Shown: piece after piece, positions 2,062 through 38,712 of the stretch
How the letters are laid out: each line of letters starts with the position of its first letter
Position numbering within the stretch: position 1 is the first letter of the stretch
Origin: Brevundimonas sp. NIBR11
Lineage (GTDB): Bacteria; Pseudomonadota; Alphaproteobacteria; Caulobacterales; Caulobacteraceae
DNA: 64,000 nt
Assembly: GCF_027912535.1 (NCBI RefSeq)
Contig: NZ_CP115465.1
Location: 3,080,001-3,144,000 of the forward strand
Direction: 5' to 3'
Program-made: the position numbers and the translations under genes
Notes under the pieces: generated by a model
Databases searched by the model: none
The model's input: only the letters and a program-made list of their open reading frames with translations
Told to the model about the DNA's origin: nothing

Positions 2062-3486
2062 ATGGCCGACGCCGCCCCCGCCGCAACCGCTTCCTACGAT
2101 GTCGTCGTGATCGGCGGCGGACCCGGCGGCTACAACGCCGCGATCCGGGCCGGGCAGTTGGGGCTGAAGGTCGCCTGCGTCGAGAAGAACGTCACCCTCG
2201 GCGGCACCTGCCTGAACGTCGGCTGCATGCCGTCAAAGGCCCTGCTGCACGCCTCGGAGCTGTTCGAGATCGCCAACAAGGAGTTCGGCACGCTCGGCAT
2301 TGAGGTCGGGACGCCCAAGGTCAACCTGCCGCAGATGATGAAGCAGAAGGCCGAGAGCGTCACCGCCCTGACCAAGGGCATCGAGTTCCTGTTCAAGAAG
2401 AACAAGGCCGACTGGATCAAGGGCGCGGGCAAGATCGTCGGGACCGGCAAGGTCGAGGTGACCGCCGCCGACGGAACCGTCACCACCCTGACGGCCAAGG
2501 ACATCGTCATCGCCACGGGTTCGGAGCCCACCCCCCTGCCGGGCGTGGACTTCGTCGAGGGCAAGATCGTCGATTCCACCGGGGCCCTTTCGCTTCCGGC
2601 CATCCCCAAGAAGCTGATCGTCATCGGCGCGGGCGTGATCGGGCTAGAACTGGGCTCGGTCTGGCGTCGCCTGGGCGCCGAGGTCGTGGTCGTGGAATTC
2701 CTCGACAAGGTCGGCGCTGGCATGGACGCCGAGGTCGCCACAGCCTTCCAGCGCGGCCTGACCAAACAGGGCATGACCTTCAAGATGGGCACGAAGGTCA
2801 CCTCGGCGAAGGCGGCCAAGGACGGCGTGGTCCTGACGCTGGAGCCTGCCGCGGGCGGCGCCGCCGAGACCCTGACCGGCGACGTGGTCCTGGTGGCCAT
2901 TGGCCGTCGCCCCTACACGGCGGGCCTAGGACTGGAATCGGTCGGCATCGAGACCGACAAGCGGGGCTTCCTGGTCAACGACCACCTGAAGACCGGCAAG
3001 GACGGCGTCTGGGTCATCGGCGACGTGACCCACGGGCCGATGCTGGCCCACAAGGCGGAAGAAGAAGCCGTCGCCGTCATCGAATACATCGCCGGCAAGG
3101 CGGGCCATGTCGACTACGACCTGGTCCCCAGCGTCATCTACACTGGACCCGAGGTGGCCTGGGTCGGCAAGACGGAAGAGCAGCTGAAAGCCGCCGGGGT
3201 CGAGTTCAAGAAGGGTAAATTCCCGTTCACCGCCAACTCGCGCGCCAAGATCAACCACGAGACCGAGGGCTTCGTGAAGGTCCTGGCCGATGCGGCGACC
3301 GACAAGGTGTTGGGCGTGCACATCTTCGGCCCGTCCGCGGGCGAACTGATCGCCGAGGCCTGTGTCGCCATGGCCTTCGGCGGCTCGTCGGAGGATATCG
3401 CGCGCACCTGCCACGCCCACCCGACCCGCTCCGAAGCCGTCAAGCAGGCGGCCATGGGCGTCGAGGGCTGGACGATGCAGGCTTAA
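2062..3486 (+). CDS. lpd: Dihydrolipoyl dehydrogenase (E3)
   Basis: 474 aa, full family length. This flavoprotein reoxidises dihydrolipoamide in 2-oxo-acid dehydrogenase complexes using NAD+. Visible signatures are the FAD Rossmann motif GGGPGG at residues 18-23, the redox disulfide in GGTCLNVGC (Cys50 and Cys55), the NAD-binding GAGVIGLE motif near 190, the IGRRP/GDV FAD segments, and the C-terminal HAHPTRSE motif (His453, Glu458) that acts as base in the partner subunit. No E1 or E2 genes are adjacent. The SDR gene starts 2 bp after its stop. Confidence 0.97.
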   Translation: MADAAPAATASYDVVVIGGGPGGYNAAIRAGQLGLKVACVEKNVTLGGTCLNVGCMPSKALLHASELFEIANKEFGTLGIEVGTPKVNLPQMMKQKAESVTALTKGIEFLFKKNKADWIKGAGKIVGTGKVEVTAADGTVTTLTAKDIVIATGSEPTPLPGVDFVEGKIVDSTGALSLPAIPKKLIVIGAGVIGLELGSVWRRLGAEVVVVEFLDKVGAGMDAEVATAFQRGLTKQGMTFKMGTKVTSAKAAKDGVVLTLEPAAGGAAETLTGDVVLVAIGRRPYTAGLGLESVGIETDKRGFLVNDHLKTGKDGVWVIGDVTHGPMLAHKAEEEAVAVIEYIAGKAGHVDYDLVPSVIYTGPEVAWVGKTEEQLKAAGVEFKKGKFPFTANSRAKINHETEGFVKVLADAATDKVLGVHIFGPSAGELIAEACVAMAFGGSSEDIARTCHAHPTRSEAVKQAAMGVEGWTMQA

Positions 3487-32354: not shown

Positions 32355-34019
32355 TCACTCGCCGATCGTATGCAGGTCGCGGCCCTTGGTTTCCGGCAGG
32401 AAGATCAAGGCGACGATCGCCGCGACCGCCGTGAAGGCGACCGAGTACCAAAGGCCGAAGTAGATGTTTCCCGACCAGGCCACGAGGGCGAAGCTGGCGG
32501 CGGGCAGCAGGCCTCCCACCCACCCCGTTCCGATATTGTAGGGCAGGCTCATCGCTGTGTAGCGCACCCGCGTCGGGAACAACTCGACCAGCGCGGCCGC
32601 CTGGGGGCCGTAGACGGCGGTGGCGGCGACCATGAAGACCATCAGGATGGCGAAGGCGGCCGGCCAGTTCAGCCGCTTCGGGTCCGCCCTGGTCGGATAG
32701 CCGGCCTCGGTCAGGGCCGCTTTCACGCTGGTCTCGACATCGGCGCGGGCGGCCTTGAGGGCGTCGGTGTCGAGGCCGGTTCCCTCGACCGAGGCGATCT
32801 CGACCGTGCCGATACGGACGGCGGCGACCGAACCCGGCTCGGCGGCGAGGTTGTCATAGCTGACGCCCGCGTTCGACAGGACGGTCTTGGCAAGGTCGCA
32901 GGAGGAGGCGAAGGCGCCCTTGCCCACCGGATCGAACTGGACCGCGCACGCAGCCGGGTCGGCGATGACGGTGACGGGGGCGTTCGTCTGGGCCTCGGCC
33001 AGGGCCGGGTTGGCGGCCTGGGTCAGGGCGTGGAAGCCGGGGAAGAGGGCGATCAGGAACAGGACCATGCCGCCGATCATGACGGGCTTGCGCCCGACCC
33101 GGTCCGACAGCCAGCCGAAGAAGACATAGAGGAAGGCCGACGCGACGGTGATGGCCAGGATCAGGCCGTCGACGGTCGAGACCTCCACCTTCAGGACCCG
33201 CTCCATGAAGAACCGGGTGTAGAAATAGCCGCAGTACCAGACGGCTCCTTGGGCGAACATGATGCCGACCAGGGCGATCAGGACGAAGCGGCCGTTCTTC
33301 CAGGTCAGGAAGCTTTCCTTGAAGGGCGCCTGACGGACCTTGCTCTCGGCCGCCATCTTCACGAAGGCGGGGCTTTCGTGCAGGCGGACGCGGATCCACA
33401 GCGATACGCCGAGCAGGAGGGCCGAGAGCCAGAAGGGGATGCGCCAGCCCCACGCGTCGAAGGCCTCGGTCCCGACGATCATCCGGGTCGTGAGGATGAC
33501 GACGAGGGCGCCGATCAGGCCGAGAGCGGCGGTGGTGTTGATGTAGGAGGTCAGAAGGCCCCGCTTCTTGGGCGGCGCGTGCTCGGCGACATAGATGGCC
33601 GCGCCCCCATATTCGCCGCCCAGCGCGAAGCCCTGGATGATCCGCATCAGGATCAGCAGTATCGGAGCCAGGATCCCGGCCTGGGAATAGTCGGGCAAGA
33701 GACCGATGGCGACCGTGGCGACACCCATCAGGGTGATGGTGACCAGGAAGGTGGTCTTGCGGCCCGTCCGGTCGCCGAACCAGCCGAAGGCCAGGGCGCC
33801 CAGAGGCCGCACCACGAAGCCGACGCCGAAGGTCAGCAGCGCAAGGATGTAGGCCGTCGCCTCGCCCACCTCCGCGTAGAAGTGGCGGGCGATGATCGTC
33901 GCCAGTGAGCCGAAGATGAAAAAGTCGTACCACTCGAACGCAGTGCCTGCGGCCGAGGCGCCGACGACGGTGCCGAGACCGGGGCCCCTGTCGTCGTGTT
34001 CGGTGGTCGCGTCGGTCAT
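32355..34019 (-). CDS. MFS transporter, metabolite:H+ symporter type, with large extramembrane insert
   Basis: 554 aa, about 110 more than typical MHS (ProP/KgtP-like) proteins. The N-terminal half shows GTAFEWYDFFIFGSLA, GFVVRPLGALAFGWFGDRTGRK and GFALGGEYGGAAIYVAEHAP. After TM8 (LFLIALFPGFHAL) comes a soluble segment of about 115 residues (roughly 330-445) containing two Cys, before NWPAAFAILMVFMVAATAVYGPQAAALVELFPTRVRYTA. The topology places the insert outside the membrane, probably in the periplasm. Substrate is not known; the group transports small carboxylates, betaine or shikimate. Confidence 0.9.
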   Translation of the reverse strand: MTDATTEHDDRGPGLGTVVGASAAGTAFEWYDFFIFGSLATIIARHFYAEVGEATAYILALLTFGVGFVVRPLGALAFGWFGDRTGRKTTFLVTITLMGVATVAIGLLPDYSQAGILAPILLILMRIIQGFALGGEYGGAAIYVAEHAPPKKRGLLTSYINTTAALGLIGALVVILTTRMIVGTEAFDAWGWRIPFWLSALLLGVSLWIRVRLHESPAFVKMAAESKVRQAPFKESFLTWKNGRFVLIALVGIMFAQGAVWYCGYFYTRFFMERVLKVEVSTVDGLILAITVASAFLYVFFGWLSDRVGRKPVMIGGMVLFLIALFPGFHALTQAANPALAEAQTNAPVTVIADPAACAVQFDPVGKGAFASSCDLAKTVLSNAGVSYDNLAAEPGSVAAVRIGTVEIASVEGTGLDTDALKAARADVETSVKAALTEAGYPTRADPKRLNWPAAFAILMVFMVAATAVYGPQAAALVELFPTRVRYTAMSLPYNIGTGWVGGLLPAASFALVAWSGNIYFGLWYSVAFTAVAAIVALIFLPETKGRDLHTIGE

Positions 34020-34336: not shown

Positions 34337-36184
34337 TCAACGCGATGTGCGGCTGAGGGTTCCGGGACGGACCTTTTCCGCGCTGGGCTTCAGATCGTCC
34401 GGATTGATCGGCACGACGGCCTCCGGGGTGGCGAAGACCATCCGGGCGATGGTGCCGCCGCCGGGGGCGGTCAGAAGCTCGACCTCGCCGCGCAGCTGTT
34501 TGGCGAAGGCGCCCATCAGGGTGCGGCCCACGCCGGCGCGGACGGCCTCGTCGGATGAGCCCGGCCCGTCGTCCTGGACTTCCAGCGTGCTCCGGTCGCC
34601 ATGAACGCGGAAGCGGACCTGAAGCGCGCCGCCCCGACCGGCGAAGGCGTGCTTCTGGGCGTTGGTGATGGCCTCCACCAGCCAAAGCGCCAGCGGCGCC
34701 AGCTTGTCGGGATCGACCACGAGACTGTCGGCATCGACGGAGGAGGTGACGGCGTAGCCGCGTCCGGCTTCGGAGGCGACCATCTGGCCCACCAGTTCGG
34801 TCAGGAAGACCTGGGCGTCGGCGTAGCGGATGTCGTCGGACTGGTAGAGGGTGCGGTAGATGAGGGCGAGGGCCGATATGCGCTGGCGCGTGTCGCCCAG
34901 CGCGGCCTTGGCCGGTTCGTCCTTCAGGGCCCTCTGCTGCATCGACAGCAGCGACGAGATGATCTGCAGGTTGTTCTTCACCCTGTGGTGGATCTCGCGC
35001 ATCAGCGCGTCCTTCTCCGACAGGCTCTCGTTCAGGGACTTGTCGCGGGTGGCGATGGCCTCGGCCAGTCCATCCAGCGTCTGGGCCAGAAGGCGGATTT
35101 CGGCGGGGGCATGGGCGGCCTGGACCGGACGCACCGAATAGCGGCCGCGCGCATAGAGGGCGGCGATCCGTTCCAGATAGTCGAGCCAGCGCACCACGAT
35201 GCGCTCGGACACCAGCATGACGGCGGCGAAGGCCGTGACCCAGGCCGCCAGCGGCAGAAGAAGCACGCCGATGGGGTTCAGCCGCGCCCAGGACAGCAGG
35301 CCAGGCGAAGGAGCGGAAATGACGACATAGACGTCGCGTCCGGCCAGGGCGGCGCCGGCATAGTCCCGGTGCTCTCCCGAGGCGTTGTCGGCGTCGAAGA
35401 CCGACGACTGTCCGCTCCGCGCGCGTTCGACCCAGCCGAGCAGACCGTGGCCTTCGCCTTCCTGGAAGGTGAAGGCGTCGCCGTCGGTGGAGACAAGCAC
35501 CCGCCCTTGCGCGTCGGTCAGGGCGGCCTGGGCGTCGTCGGGCAGGGCGGGGTCGTTGATGTCGGGCTGCAGCTCACTCAGCGGCAGGACGGCGGCCATG
35601 GCGCCGGCGAAGACGCCGCGCGGTCGTTCCCATCGGACGCCGATGACCAGGGCGGGCGTGTCGGTCAGATCGCCGGAGGCGCGGGCCAGGGCGACGTCCT
35701 CGCCCGACTTCAGCCGCTGGAACCAGGGTTCGTCGGCGAAGACCGAACCGCTACCGACCTGAGCCGTGGGGCGGGAATCGCAGACGCTCTGGCCGCCCGC
35801 GCCGATCCGGTAGAGGGCGCCGTAGTCGTCGAGGCGCTGGACGAGGTCGGCCAGGCGCGGGCCGCAGATCGGGGCGGACGCCTCCGGCGCGAGCGCGGAC
35901 AGCAGGACGGCGGCGGCGTCGAGCCGAAATCTCGCCGCCTCGGCCGTGCGCTCGGCGGCGAATTGCAGGTCGGCCCGGCGGTCCTCGGCCTGACGCCGAA
36001 ACTCGACCTGGGCCTGGAAGGCGCCCAGCAGCAGGATGGGCAGAAGGGCGATGGCCATGGCCAGGCCCAGCCGGAAGCGGATGCCCTGGACGCGGGGGGT
36101 CGACACGCCCCGCGCCCAGAATCGGCTGAAGGTGGAGGCCGCGCGCCGGGTGATGCGACCCCGCGCGGGCCTAGCGGACTCCAT
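34337..36184 (-). CDS. HisKA_2/HWE-type sensor kinase of the general stress response (PhyK-like)
   Basis: 615 aa. Two membrane segments (about residues 38-58 and 303-326) enclose a periplasmic sensor region of about 245 residues, then a HAMP-like linker. The phospho-acceptor region is ALMREIHHRVKNNLQIISSLLSMQ (His399/His400), typical of HisKA_2 kinases, and is followed by an HATPase domain (LVEAITNAQKHAF, LEVQDDGPGS). It starts 2 bp after ecfG in the nepR-ecfG operon. By position and type it should phosphorylate PhyR; that is inference from the family. Confidence 0.92.
   Translation of the reverse strand: MESARPARGRITRRAASTFSRFWARGVSTPRVQGIRFRLGLAMAIALLPILLLGAFQAQVEFRRQAEDRRADLQFAAERTAEAARFRLDAAAVLLSALAPEASAPICGPRLADLVQRLDDYGALYRIGAGGQSVCDSRPTAQVGSGSVFADEPWFQRLKSGEDVALARASGDLTDTPALVIGVRWERPRGVFAGAMAAVLPLSELQPDINDPALPDDAQAALTDAQGRVLVSTDGDAFTFQEGEGHGLLGWVERARSGQSSVFDADNASGEHRDYAGAALAGRDVYVVISAPSPGLLSWARLNPIGVLLLPLAAWVTAFAAVMLVSERIVVRWLDYLERIAALYARGRYSVRPVQAAHAPAEIRLLAQTLDGLAEAIATRDKSLNESLSEKDALMREIHHRVKNNLQIISSLLSMQQRALKDEPAKAALGDTRQRISALALIYRTLYQSDDIRYADAQVFLTELVGQMVASEAGRGYAVTSSVDADSLVVDPDKLAPLALWLVEAITNAQKHAFAGRGGALQVRFRVHGDRSTLEVQDDGPGSSDEAVRAGVGRTLMGAFAKQLRGEVELLTAPGGGTIARMVFATPEAVVPINPDDLKPSAEKVRPGTLSRTSR
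34339..34363 (-). promoter_or_regulatory. EcfG-type promoter for the entericidin gene
   Basis: On the minus strand GGAAC (34363-34359) is followed after exactly 16 bp by CGTT (34342-34339), a full match to the EcfG/SigT consensus. Predicted start of transcription is near 34332, about 48 nt before the ATG. It overlaps the stop-codon end of the sensor kinase gene. Confidence 0.8.
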
Positions 36185-36186
36185 GA

Positions 36187-36807
36187 TCAGCCTTGTTGTC
36201 GCGCGCCGCTCAGGCGGTCGGCGTCGGCCAGGATCGATCGCATCGCGTCGCCCGCCGCCCGGCCGTCACGACCGTAGCCGCCGCGTTCGAGCGTGGCCTG
36301 AAGCGCCTTTCGAGCCCGGCTGACGCGGCTCTTCACCGTGCCGACGGCGCAGTTGCAGATCTCGGCCGCCTCTTCGTAGGCGAAGCCTCCCGCGCCGACC
36401 AGGATCAGCGCTTCGCGTTGTTCCTCGGGCAGGGTGTTCAGCGCCTGACGCAGTTCGTCCAGGGCGACGGGCGCCTCGGGATCGTCGACGGCGACCAGGG
36501 TCCGTTCGGCGGCTTCCTGATCCAGCTGAGACGACCGCCAGGAGCGACGCTTTTCCGAATAGAACTGGTTGCGCAAAATCATGAAGGTCCAGGCCTTCAT
36601 GTTCGTCCCCATCTGATACGAGGCGCGGGCGTCCCAGGCCTTCATCATGGCGTCCTGCGCCAGATCGTCGGCGGCGGTCGGATCGCCGGTCAGTGTGCGG
36701 GCGAAGGCGCGCAGATGCGGGATCAGCTGGACCAGTTCACGCTTGAAGCCTTCGTCGTCGGCGGAAGGCGGCTTGGGCGCGGTCGAGCGGCCAGACGACG
36801 CGCTCAC
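36187..36807 (-). CDS. ecfG: General stress sigma factor EcfG (SigT)
   Basis: 206 aa ECF sigma factor. Region 2 is LIPHLRAFARTLTGDPTAADDLAQDAMMKAW with TNMKAWTFMILRNQFYSEKRRS, the typical EcfG signature. Region 4 is ALNTLPEEQREALILVGAGGFAYEEAAEICNCAVGTVKSRVSRARK. GTG start overlaps the nepR stop (GTGA). Held inactive by NepR until phosphorylated PhyR binds NepR. It recognises GGAAC/CGTT promoters, several of which are in this window. Confidence 0.95.
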   Translation of the reverse strand: MSASSGRSTAPKPPSADDEGFKRELVQLIPHLRAFARTLTGDPTAADDLAQDAMMKAWDARASYQMGTNMKAWTFMILRNQFYSEKRRSWRSSQLDQEAAERTLVAVDDPEAPVALDELRQALNTLPEEQREALILVGAGGFAYEEAAEICNCAVGTVKSRVSRARKALQATLERGGYGRDGRAAGDAMRSILADADRLSGARQQG

Positions 36808-37007
36808 GCCTTGTTCTCGTCGGCGGCGCGTTGGTCGGCGCGACGCAGGATGTCCAGAAACTCGTCCGGCACAGGTTCGTTGACGACCTCGTCGAACATG
36901 TGGCGCAGCTTCACGCCGATGGCCTGCTGGCGCAGACGCGCTTCTTCCAGCGGCGGTTCACCGCTCGCAGACTTGGGCTTGCGCCCGGACTCCGAGGAAT
37001 CGATCAT
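36804..37007 (-). CDS. nepR: Anti-sigma factor NepR
   Basis: 67 aa from the ATG at 37007. The core LRQQAIGVKLRHMFDEVVNEPVPDEFLDILRRAD is the NepR helix pair that binds EcfG or PhyR. The open frame starts 10 codons earlier, but the ATG gives the family's usual length. Overlaps ecfG by 4 bp, ensuring coupled, near-equal synthesis. An EcfG-type promoter at 37091-37115 gives autoregulation. Confidence 0.93.
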   Translation of the reverse strand: MIDSSESGRKPKSASGEPPLEEARLRQQAIGVKLRHMFDEVVNEPVPDEFLDILRRADQRAADENKA

Positions 37008-37090
37008 TAAATATGAGCCGCCAACCGTTGATCTCATTCACGCGAACACGCCGGCGCTTGTACGCGCCTGGCTTCATCGTTCAGGCCGTC

Positions 37091-37115
37091 AACGTCGTTC
37101 CACCATCAGGGTTCC
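37091..37115 (-). promoter_or_regulatory. EcfG-type promoter for nepR-ecfG-kinase
   Basis: On the minus strand GGAAC (37115-37111), a 16 bp spacer, then CGTT (37094-37091). It lies about 85 bp upstream of nepR. It implies a positive loop in which EcfG transcribes its own operon, as known for this system in other alphaproteobacteria. Confidence 0.85.
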
Positions 37116-37157: not shown

Positions 37158-37182
37158 GGAACCGTGGCCATAGTGCGACGTT
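37158..37182 (+). promoter_or_regulatory. EcfG-type promoter for phyR
   Basis: GGAAC at 37158-37162, 16 bp spacer, CGTT at 37179-37182. About 60 bp upstream of the phyR ATG. It is divergent from the nepR promoter, with 42 bp between the two -35 boxes. Confidence 0.85.
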
Positions 37183-37244: not shown

Positions 37245-37979
37245 ATGAGCCTTCTGGCCAGACTTGCGCCGCACCTGCCCTATGTCCGTCGCTACGCGCG
37301 GGCCCTGACCGGAGACCAGGCGACGGGCGACAACTATGTGCGCGTCGCCCTCTACCACGTCTTCCACACCATCTGGTCCACGACCGGCGCCCAGCTCGAA
37401 GACGGCAGCGGCATTGAGTCTCAAGGCGACGCCTCCAGCCGACTGATGCGGATCGCCCCGCGCTCGCGTCAGGCCTTCCTTCTGACCGCGCTCGAAGGCT
37501 TCACGCCTTCGGAGGCCGCCCAGATTCTGTCCGCCGACGCCCATTCGGTCGAGCGGCTGATCGGCGACGCACAGGCCGAGATCGACGCCGAACTGGCCAC
37601 CGACGTCCTGATCATCGAGGACGAGGCCATCATTTCCGCCGACATCGAGAGCCTGGTGAAGGAGCTGGGCCACAACGTCAGCGCCACGGCGACCACCCAT
37701 GACGAGGCCGTCGACGCCGTCGCGCGTCACAAGCCGGGCTTGGTCCTGGCCGATATCCAGCTGGCCGACGGCTCGTCGGGCATCGATGCGGTCAAGGACA
37801 TCCTCAAGAAGTTCGACGTGCCGGTGATCTTCATCACCGCCTTCCCCGAGCGTCTGCTGACCGGCGAGCGCCCGGAGCCGACCTTCCTCATCACCAAGCC
37901 CTTCCAGCCGGAGACGGTGAAGGCGGCGATCTCGCAGGCCCTGTTCTTCCACCCGACCCGCCAGAAGGAAGCCGCCTGA
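37245..37979 (+). CDS. phyR: General stress response regulator PhyR with shortened sigma-like domain
   Basis: 244 aa, about 20 fewer than most PhyR proteins. The N-terminal sigma-like part has LLARLAPHLPYVRRYARALTGDQ, IAPRSRQAFLLTALEGF and SEAAQIL. The C-terminal receiver has acidic residues Glu125/Asp126, phospho-acceptor Asp170 (LVLADIQL), Thr198 and Lys218. Between GDNYV and RVALYHVF (residues 28-40) about 20 residues seem to be missing compared with the PhyR sequences I remember. When phosphorylated, the sigma-like domain sequesters NepR. Divergent from nepR; followed by a strong terminator. Confidence 0.94.
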   Translation: MSLLARLAPHLPYVRRYARALTGDQATGDNYVRVALYHVFHTIWSTTGAQLEDGSGIESQGDASSRLMRIAPRSRQAFLLTALEGFTPSEAAQILSADAHSVERLIGDAQAEIDAELATDVLIIEDEAIISADIESLVKELGHNVSATATTHDEAVDAVARHKPGLVLADIQLADGSSGIDAVKDILKKFDVPVIFITAFPERLLTGERPEPTFLITKPFQPETVKAAISQALFFHPTRQKEAA

Positions 37980-38055: not shown

Positions 38056-38391
38056 TCAGTTGGCCGGAGGGTTGACGTTCGGCTCAGTCCCGGCCGGCGT
38101 CGGAGCGGGCTCGCCCGTCGCATTGGTCGGCGCGTCCGGTGTCGGCGGGCCAGAGTTGTCGAAGGCGGCGGCGTCCACCGTCTGGGCGCCCGTGTTGGCG
38201 TTCTGCGAAGCGAAGCCGCCGTTGGAAAGGAACCACATTCCGAGCAGCAGGATCGCCGCGGCTCCGGCAGAAACGATCAGCAGGACGAGGATGCGCTTTC
38301 CGGGCCGGGCGCCGCGCACATACTGGGCGTCGACGGGGCGGCCTTCGTGGACCGCGTCGGCCGCTTCGGAATGGGGATCGTGATGGGTCAT
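38056..38391 (-). CDS. Single-pass membrane protein with Pro-rich tail, predicted stress regulon member
   Basis: 111 aa. A His/Asp-rich cytoplasmic N-terminus (MTHHDPHSEA), basic segment, one membrane helix (about residues 33-54, ILVLLIVSAGAAAILLLGMWFL) and a low-complexity Pro/Ala/Thr/Asn-rich tail, probably periplasmic. Start at 38391 is favoured over 38430 because the EcfG promoter at 38429-38453 would begin transcription near 38421. No recognised domain. Position beside phyR and its promoter suggest a role in the general stress response. Confidence 0.78.
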   Translation of the reverse strand: MTHHDPHSEAADAVHEGRPVDAQYVRGARPGKRILVLLIVSAGAAAILLLGMWFLSNGGFASQNANTGAQTVDAAAFDNSGPPTPDAPTNATGEPAPTPAGTEPNVNPPAN

Positions 38392-38428: not shown

Positions 38429-38453
38429 AACGCCGGGTCAGCGTGGCCGTTCC
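38429..38453 (-). promoter_or_regulatory. EcfG-type promoter for the single-pass membrane protein
   Basis: On the minus strand GGAAC (38453-38449), 16 bp spacer, CGTT (38432-38429). About 38 bp upstream of the ATG at 38391. Divergent from the small-RNA promoter, with 45 bp between the two -35 elements. Confidence 0.83.
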
Positions 38454-38498: not shown

Positions 38499-38523
38499 GG
38501 AACGGTTATCGAATGACGCCGTT
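38499..38523 (+). promoter_or_regulatory. EcfG-type promoter for the candidate small RNA
   Basis: GGAAC at 38499-38503, 16 bp spacer, CGTT at 38520-38523. No ORF starts within 180 bp; instead a structured sequence and a terminator follow. Predicted transcription start is near 38530. Confidence 0.83.
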
Positions 38524-38529
38524 CTCAAT

Positions 38530-38649
38530 CTGCGGAGGCGGCGACGCCCCCCCCGACTTGGACCGGCCACAGCCGGTCCTGCCGCCTCCGCGCCTCATTC
38601 TCGATGATGCCACTAGGCCGGTTCCTTCAGGGAGCCGGCTTTTTCTTTT
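38530..38649 (+). ncRNA. Candidate general-stress small RNA (GsrN-like)
   Basis: A roughly 120-nt transcript is bounded by an EcfG promoter and an intrinsic terminator. It contains no plausible ORF. Its 5' half folds strongly: a perfect 11-bp outer stem (38532-38542 with 38581-38591) encloses an unpaired 17-nt 5' bulge with eight consecutive C (38547-38554) and a perfect 8-bp inner hairpin (38560-38567 with 38572-38579, loop CACA). In Caulobacter the stress sigma factor transcribes a small RNA, GsrN, whose exposed C-rich 5' region base-pairs with target mRNAs such as katG. As I recall, its homologs often lie near the nepR/ecfG/phyR genes. The match here is in promoter, position and structure; sequence homology was not tested. 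Confidence 0.72.
38617..38649 (+). terminator. Intrinsic terminator of the candidate small RNA
   Basis: GCCGGTTCC (38617-38625) pairs over all 9 bp (one G-U) with GGAGCCGGC (38631-38639) around TTCAG, followed by TTTTTCTTTT. It separates the small RNA from the MDR gene that starts at 38713. Confidence 0.92.
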
Positions 38650-38712
38650 GCCTTGGTCGTCGGCTTGGTCATGATGAGGGTCTGCAAAAGAAACCAACCG
38701 GAGACGATGACC

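Follow-up and report, generated by a model that had tools for sequence, protein, structure and literature searches.

The locus examined here raises the question of whether the structured stretch that follows an EcfG-type promoter beside phyR in a Brevundimonas genome encodes the small RNA GsrN and, if so, upon which messages that RNA acts. In the window, by which we mean the whole 64-kb stretch of DNA that was analysed, the initial annotation had placed an exact EcfG promoter at positions 38499-38523. A site of the form GGAAC-N16-CGTT is present on the forward strand at exactly these positions, with the -35 element GGAAC at 38499-38503, a 16-bp spacer and the -10 element CGTT at 38520-38523. 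The window holds five such sites, as against 0.39 +/- 0.68 expected (largest value 3) from 100 dinucleotide shuffles, and four of the five fall between 37091 and 38523, where they lie at nepR-ecfG, phyR, a divergent membrane-protein gene and the candidate RNA gene, hereafter gsrN. Across the whole genome, the pattern with a spacer of 16-17 occurs at 42 sites versus 23 for the reversed control.

The neighbouring genes form a general stress response (GSR) locus. On the reverse strand, nepR (36804-37037; PF18557 NepR) and ecfG (36187-36807; sigma-70 r2/r4 domains) stand behind an exact promoter match at 37091-37115, while phyR (37245-37979, forward strand; PF22233, PF22029 and PF00072) stands behind another at 37158-37182. 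A small membrane-protein gene next to gsrN (38056-38391, reverse strand), in which one hydrophobic stretch is discernible by eye and no Pfam family was matched, has an exact EcfG-type promoter of its own at 38429-38453 on the reverse strand, back to back with the gsrN promoter; in 23 of 39 genomes of the genus, too, an EcfG-like site on the opposite strand lies at most 160 nt from that of gsrN. The gsrN promoter starts approximately 520 bp past the end of phyR, a position near phyR/nepR/ecfG that is typical of GsrN without being obligatory, and the next gene, starting near 38707, encodes an oxidoreductase (PF16884/PF00107). As many as 14 Brevundimonas loci share the order phyR - small membrane protein - gsrN - oxidoreductase and, among the 47 gsrN loci with flanks of 1.5-2.5 kb, PhyR adjoins gsrN in 37. 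Homologs of gsrN are typically proximal to ecfG/nepR/phyR according to Tien et al. 2018 (PMC5869019, cited throughout from those portions of its text available to us), who describe the C. crescentus gene as distal, in contrast to the one in the window. A distal arrangement also occurs within Brevundimonas, in genome G192 (locus L261), where gsrN and nepR/phyR are far apart (1.42 vs 2.16 Mb), as the same paper says of C. crescentus.

The fifth exact EcfG-type promoter of the window lies elsewhere, at 34339-34363 on the reverse strand, at the end of a PhyK-like kinase gene (34337-36184, reverse strand) and approximately 320 bp upstream of an MFS/sugar transporter gene (32355-34019, reverse strand), which may be under stress control.

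Predicted transcript and its relation to GsrN

Matches to two covariance models, RF01529 of Rfam and our own R1, cover a predicted transcript of approximately 118 nt on the forward strand (38532-38649). Its putative +1 is G38532, placed by homology with Caulobacter GsrN, and its end would lie in the T-run. The 121 nt from 38529 to 38649 fold at -66.5 kcal/mol (z -6.06), and none of 200 shuffled sequences is equally stable. In this fold, an outer stem (5' strand 38532-38542, 3' strand 38581-38591) encloses an exposed loop, GACG-C8-GACUU (38543-38559), which the fold and the conservation of the C-run mark as the predicted mRNA-pairing segment, and an inner hairpin with a CACA loop (38560-38579), which is supported by covariation as well. 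There follow the 3' element CCUCAUUCUCGAUGAUGCCAC (38593-38613), a linker with a weak hairpin that is kept in most of the genus, and an intrinsic terminator (38615-38649), with its stem at 38615-38641 and its U tail at 38640-38649. These parts agree closely with what had been read from the letters alone: the 11-bp outer stem is recovered as 11 Watson-Crick pairs plus one G-U, the segment of 17 nt with eight C has that length if the G-U is left open, and the inner hairpin has the 8 bp proposed. The terminator stem is likewise present before UUUUUCUUUU, with its length in need of correction, as the fold allows 12 pairs (3 of them G-U) rather than 9. ORFs of at least 50 aa do cover the stretch in the ORF listing; because the RNA model and the relatives explain it, we read them as mechanical frames.

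RF01529 (CC3552) matches 38534-38638 on the forward strand with a score of 82.3 bits (cut-off 50), its single match in the genome; the control, Caulobacter vibrioides, was matched too. R1, a covariance model of the gsrN 5' domain made from 36 sequences, scores the window RNA at 68 bits, while the suhB/mmgR model (RF00519) stays below threshold on it, at 14 bits against a cut-off of 41. The literature searched yielded no name-to-name link between CC3552 and GsrN, and the two were connected through the RF01529 homolog of a Caulobacter-like genome, G077. Numbered from one +1, the G of GCGAAGG, which was chosen to fit the published landmarks (37, C53, T54, T64 and 106), this homolog has C at 53, T at 54 and 64, the hairpin-loop A at 37, a terminator-run T at 106 and a six-C loop. 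In the katG of the same genome (L148), GTCGGGG begins 39 nt before the presumed ATG and is the complement of CCCCGAC in the six-C loop; for katG mRNA, pairing with GsrN has been described for the first seven bases (PMC5869019). Since the landmarks, the six-C loop and the katG 7-mer of G077 all agree with the available text of PMC5869019, we take RF01529 to be the experimentally studied GsrN and the window RNA to be its ortholog. The initial annotation, which had proposed a GsrN homolog, is thereby borne out by a family match over cut-off at a GSR locus, together with conservation of the EcfG-type promoter and covariation in the structure.

Homologs of gsrN in Brevundimonas and Phenylobacterium had already been reported by BLASTn (Figure 9 of Tien et al. 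2018, PMC5869019). As far as the accessible text of that paper allows comparison, these are the same gene and differ in nothing essential from that of the window, which is a further Brevundimonas homolog of an RNA already recognized by Rfam and noted there. Caulobacter GsrN (ccna_R0081) likewise has an EcfG/SigT-type promoter and an intrinsic terminator, and shares with the Brevundimonas RNA the outer stem with a C-rich loop, the inner hairpin and the linker (PMC5869019). The differences lie in the loop, with C8 in the window RNA versus C6 in the G077 homolog, in the sequence of the inner hairpin and in the linker, which reads CCUCAUUCUCGAUGAUGCC in the former and CCCCUUUGUUGAUGCGA in the latter.

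Distribution and covariation in the family

Across 199 genomes of the family, RF01529 finds a match in 125 (119 of them over cut-off) and R1 finds gsrN in 127, representing 17 of the 22 sampled genera. Outside the family, R1 found nothing at E 0.001 with strict filters, either in an even sample of 385 genomes of the class, where its three matches are the window genome and two others of its genus, or in 200 genomes of the order, where all 36 matches fall within the family. The RNA tends to occur together with NepR: 125 of the 199 genomes have both, 2 the RNA only, 25 NepR only and 47 neither (p 1e-24, uncorrected for kinship). The 25 genomes with NepR and no R1 match comprise five of Brevundimonas and 20 of other genera, the latter examined for the promoter pattern only, and a laxer R1 search yielded only weak hits in them, none above 34 bits.

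For the homolog alignment, 94 loci were entered, of which 13 failed at E 1e-6 (nine of the B. diminuta type described below, L100, L102, L126 and L219), leaving 81 rows with four duplicates, that is, 77 distinct sequences. In this alignment, which was fitted to the tested structure and is therefore biased in its favour, 97.8% of pair cells are paired. Double-sided changes occur at 12 of 19 pairs, comprising all seven modelled pairs of the inner hairpin and 5 of 12 in the outer stem (helix 1). None of 500 shuffles reached the observed level, and structures slid along the alignment were at most 58.6% paired. The structure, whose lack in related genomes had been named at the outset as a refutation, is conserved there; two of the checks suggested for this locus, a covariance-model and a synteny search, gave the 82.3 bits and the 37 of 47 loci reported above.

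An EcfG-type promoter (GGAA[CT]-N15-18-[GA]TT) ends 7-8 nt before the model start in 80 of the 81 homologs, 63 of which have the strict form; for the exception, L224, the upstream sequence examined amounts to 25 nt. A C-run of 5-9 is present in all 81 and C4 followed by GAC in 80, and a T-run follows the RNA in most of them (74/81). Second RF01529 matches of 35-37 bits in G078, G151, G155 and G159 were considered as possible gsrN paralogs and rejected as false, because they have no promoter, show no C-run in the alignment and are not found by R1 at E 0.01. In G181, which belongs to another genus, an EcfG-type promoter in the phyR region (L119, reverse strand, near 3066) precedes an unrelated short stretch with a strong terminator, possibly another stress-controlled RNA.

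Target sites in katG and elsewhere

The window genome has katG, the message with which GsrN of Caulobacter pairs, as was pointed out when the locus was first described. Pairing of that kind finds no matching site in the katG leader here: in contrast to C. crescentus katG, the GUCGGGG site is missing, and not even CGGGG was found between 160 nt upstream and 30 nt downstream of the start. At best, the canonical loop pairs with this leader at -11.6 kcal/mol, which does not surpass the -12.7 kcal/mol of shuffles (p 0.63). A CGGGGG does occur approximately 195 nt before the katG start (L084:885-890), outside the stretch tested for duplexes, and may or may not be transcribed.

With one canonical loop, duplex tests against the leaders of 18 of 21 chosen katG loci gave a best p of 0.09; starts were picked by script, those of L133, L134 and L144 looking doubtful, and the three remaining loci, that of G077 included, had no start codon found. 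Scanning of the first 1900 bases of ten katG loci located GTCGGGG in two, namely L148 of G077 and L146, in which the site lies far upstream of a katG whose start is not fixed. Among 80 family genomes, some of them incomplete, 26 have both gsrN and katG, 18 gsrN only, 14 katG only and 22 neither, consistent with independent occurrence (p 0.12). We therefore do not regard katG as the general target of GsrN, and as a conserved target it is not supported for this genome: 18 of the 44 gsrN-positive genomes have no katG, and the leader site is missing here. That site characterizes C. crescentus rather than the RNA family and, because the katG leader of the present genome has no matching site, the main targets of its gsrN are probably other mRNAs. 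These data suggest that katG, the sole proven target, cannot be what keeps gsrN in the family, and that the conserved targets are still to be found.

A genome-wide search for G-rich complements of the C-run, proposed at the outset as a route to targets, did not yield an enrichment: the longest seed string used, CAAGTCGGGG, has nine sites, one of which is gsrN itself, versus 25 for the reversed control. One of the eight others (L248, G000:C1:1115213-1115222) begins 19 nt before the ATG of a 461-codon frame, the start of which looks SecY-like; one such leader site among eight is no more than chance would give.

Variant 5' domains and the 3' element in Brevundimonas

The C-rich loop is described as the most conserved part of GsrN (PMC5869019). 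In Brevundimonas, the 3' element is as widespread: among 40 genomes of the genus, sampled regardless of the 3' element, 35 have the C-loop domain and 36 have the 3' element in place. Two of the 35, G092 (-10 element TGTT) and G165 (C6-UGAC, one base off the loop pattern), were counted as C-loop by hand, and the total agrees with R1, which likewise has 35 matches within the genus. All five genomes without an R1 match are NepR-positive. In four of them, G107, G127, G180 and G198, the phyR region contains an EcfG-type promoter, behind which come an altered 5' domain, the same 3' element (UCGAUGAUGC) and a terminator; in the fifth, G186, no recognizable gsrN-like RNA was found beside phyR. A separate search by the 3' element, whose loci were excluded from the frequency count as having been chosen by that element, returned 88 stretches. 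Of the 80 that were classed, 58 are C-loop loci, 12 are unrelated and 10 have the promoter and fall outside the C-loop pattern, seven being of the B. diminuta type and three near-canonical.

G127 and G198 group with B. diminuta, B. naejangsanensis and B. guildfordensis. The 5' domain of this clade is compact, typically with a stem CGAGGGC/GCCCUCG and a loop containing UUCCCCC, a form that we did not meet in the literature searched, where PMC5869019 was the one paper on GsrN, nor in the available text of that paper. Nine such loci were collected (L101, L104, L158, L166, L185, L187, L209, L211 and L213); their longest C-run is 5 except in one locus, where it is 4. None of the nine is found by R1 at E 1e-6, and RF01529 has no match in G127 and G198, the genomes of this type that were scanned. 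When five of the RNAs were folded, the outer stem was part of the minimum-energy structure in four and absent in L187. In a PhyR tree whose bootstrap had not settled, the nine loci form one clade (100/99) that groups at 99/97 with B. bullata and two others, whose RNAs are canonical or near-canonical, and G107 and G180 (L100 and L102), the 5' part of which has no C-run, form a separate clade (100/100). Two labels on this tree are off, L126 being marked absent/other though R1 finds it (47.9 bits) and L219 canonical though its C-run is 4 and R1 misses it at E 1e-6; the numbers of changes for 'can' and 'absentother' are slightly inaccurate for this reason, and the clades 'dim' and 'noC' are unaffected by either.

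One genome, G092, clearly shows the reverse situation, in which the C-loop domain is kept and the 3' element is missing. Loss of the element in G083 and G174, which are also without a clear terminator there, was set aside as ambiguous, a similar word, CTC(A/G)ATGATGACC, occurring approximately 40 nt further down; this may be a displaced 3' element or part of the neighbouring gene.

Family model, covariation and synteny together support the view that, throughout Brevundimonas, one and the same RNA provides the post-transcriptional branch of the general stress response. By analogy with Caulobacter, PhyR would under stress sequester NepR and so release sigma-EcfG, which would transcribe gsrN from approximately 38532 to the terminator. 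The closed outer stem and the inner hairpin would hold the C8-GACUU loop open for pairing with G-rich stretches of mRNAs, whose translation or stability would be altered. Caulobacter GsrN depends on Hfq and is processed to a stable 5' isoform (PMC5869019), and Hfq and endonucleolytic processing may similarly shape the RNA of this genome into a stable 5' piece; the equivalent of the C53/T54 cleavage site described in that paper falls within 38581-38591, where cleavage would be expected.

Other accounts of the stretch fare less well against these observations. A mere terminator or attenuator in the intergenic spacer, without an independent transcript, would not be expected to contain a covarying internal hairpin, which belongs to no terminator, nor to stand at a fixed 7-8 nt from an EcfG-type promoter in 80 of 81 homologs, and we regard this account as scarcely credible. 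Convergence, in which an unrelated EcfG-driven RNA has arrived at a C-rich loop in a stem, could appeal to the C-rich motifs reported in several sRNA systems and to the GsrN-like RNAs of Rhizobiaceae (PMC5869019). The latter likewise have a GSR-locus position, an EcfG-type promoter and an exposed loop at the 5' end, are filed by expression, position and promoter rather than by sequence, and showed no sequence relation by R1 (385 class and 200 order genomes under strict filters, the sampled genera being unspecified). For the window RNA, however, convergence is extremely improbable and in effect refuted by the covariance-model score, the RF01529 match being far above cut-off and accompanied by synteny and by homologs in 17 of 22 sampled genera.

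A further alternative accepts the orthology and denies the mode of action: gsrN would act mainly through its 3' element CCUCAUUCUCGAUGAUG, and the C-loop would only stabilize the molecule. Of 40 genomes of the genus, 36 have the element in place, the four with rewritten 5' domains among them, katG pairing is absent here, and 27 predicted interactions of Caulobacter GsrN use the 3' exposed region (PMC5869019). Yet a C-run of at least 5 is kept in all 81 R1 homologs, at least one genome of the genus (G092) keeps the C-loop without the element, and the first 58 nt of Caulobacter GsrN suffice for peroxide survival (PMC5869019), and we consider this alternative unlikely. There is, in our view, very little doubt that the window RNA is the gsrN of Brevundimonas, an ortholog of Caulobacter GsrN acting by the mechanism outlined above.

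A broader reading of the variants can be offered tentatively, as a possibility that we would not yet favour. GsrN may be a two-module RNA whose halves evolve separately, the stress response swapping its mRNA targets by remodelling, with the Caulobacter link to katG as a local acquisition. On this reading, the pairing domain would have been rewritten at least twice in Brevundimonas under a kept promoter and 3' element, once to the compact C4-C5 loop of the B. diminuta clade and once to the form with no C-run in the two-genome lineage; the opposite would have happened in at least one lineage (G092), where the C-loop was retained and the 3' element lost. What would be added to the known picture of GsrN are the missing katG site in this genome and the separable halves, and the natural variants with rewritten 5' domains are a ready-made test of the role of each half.

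One contig carrying a compact locus, L209, is filed under a Bordetella metagenome-assembled genome; it bears a Brevundimonas-type phyR and gsrN and is probably misbinned.
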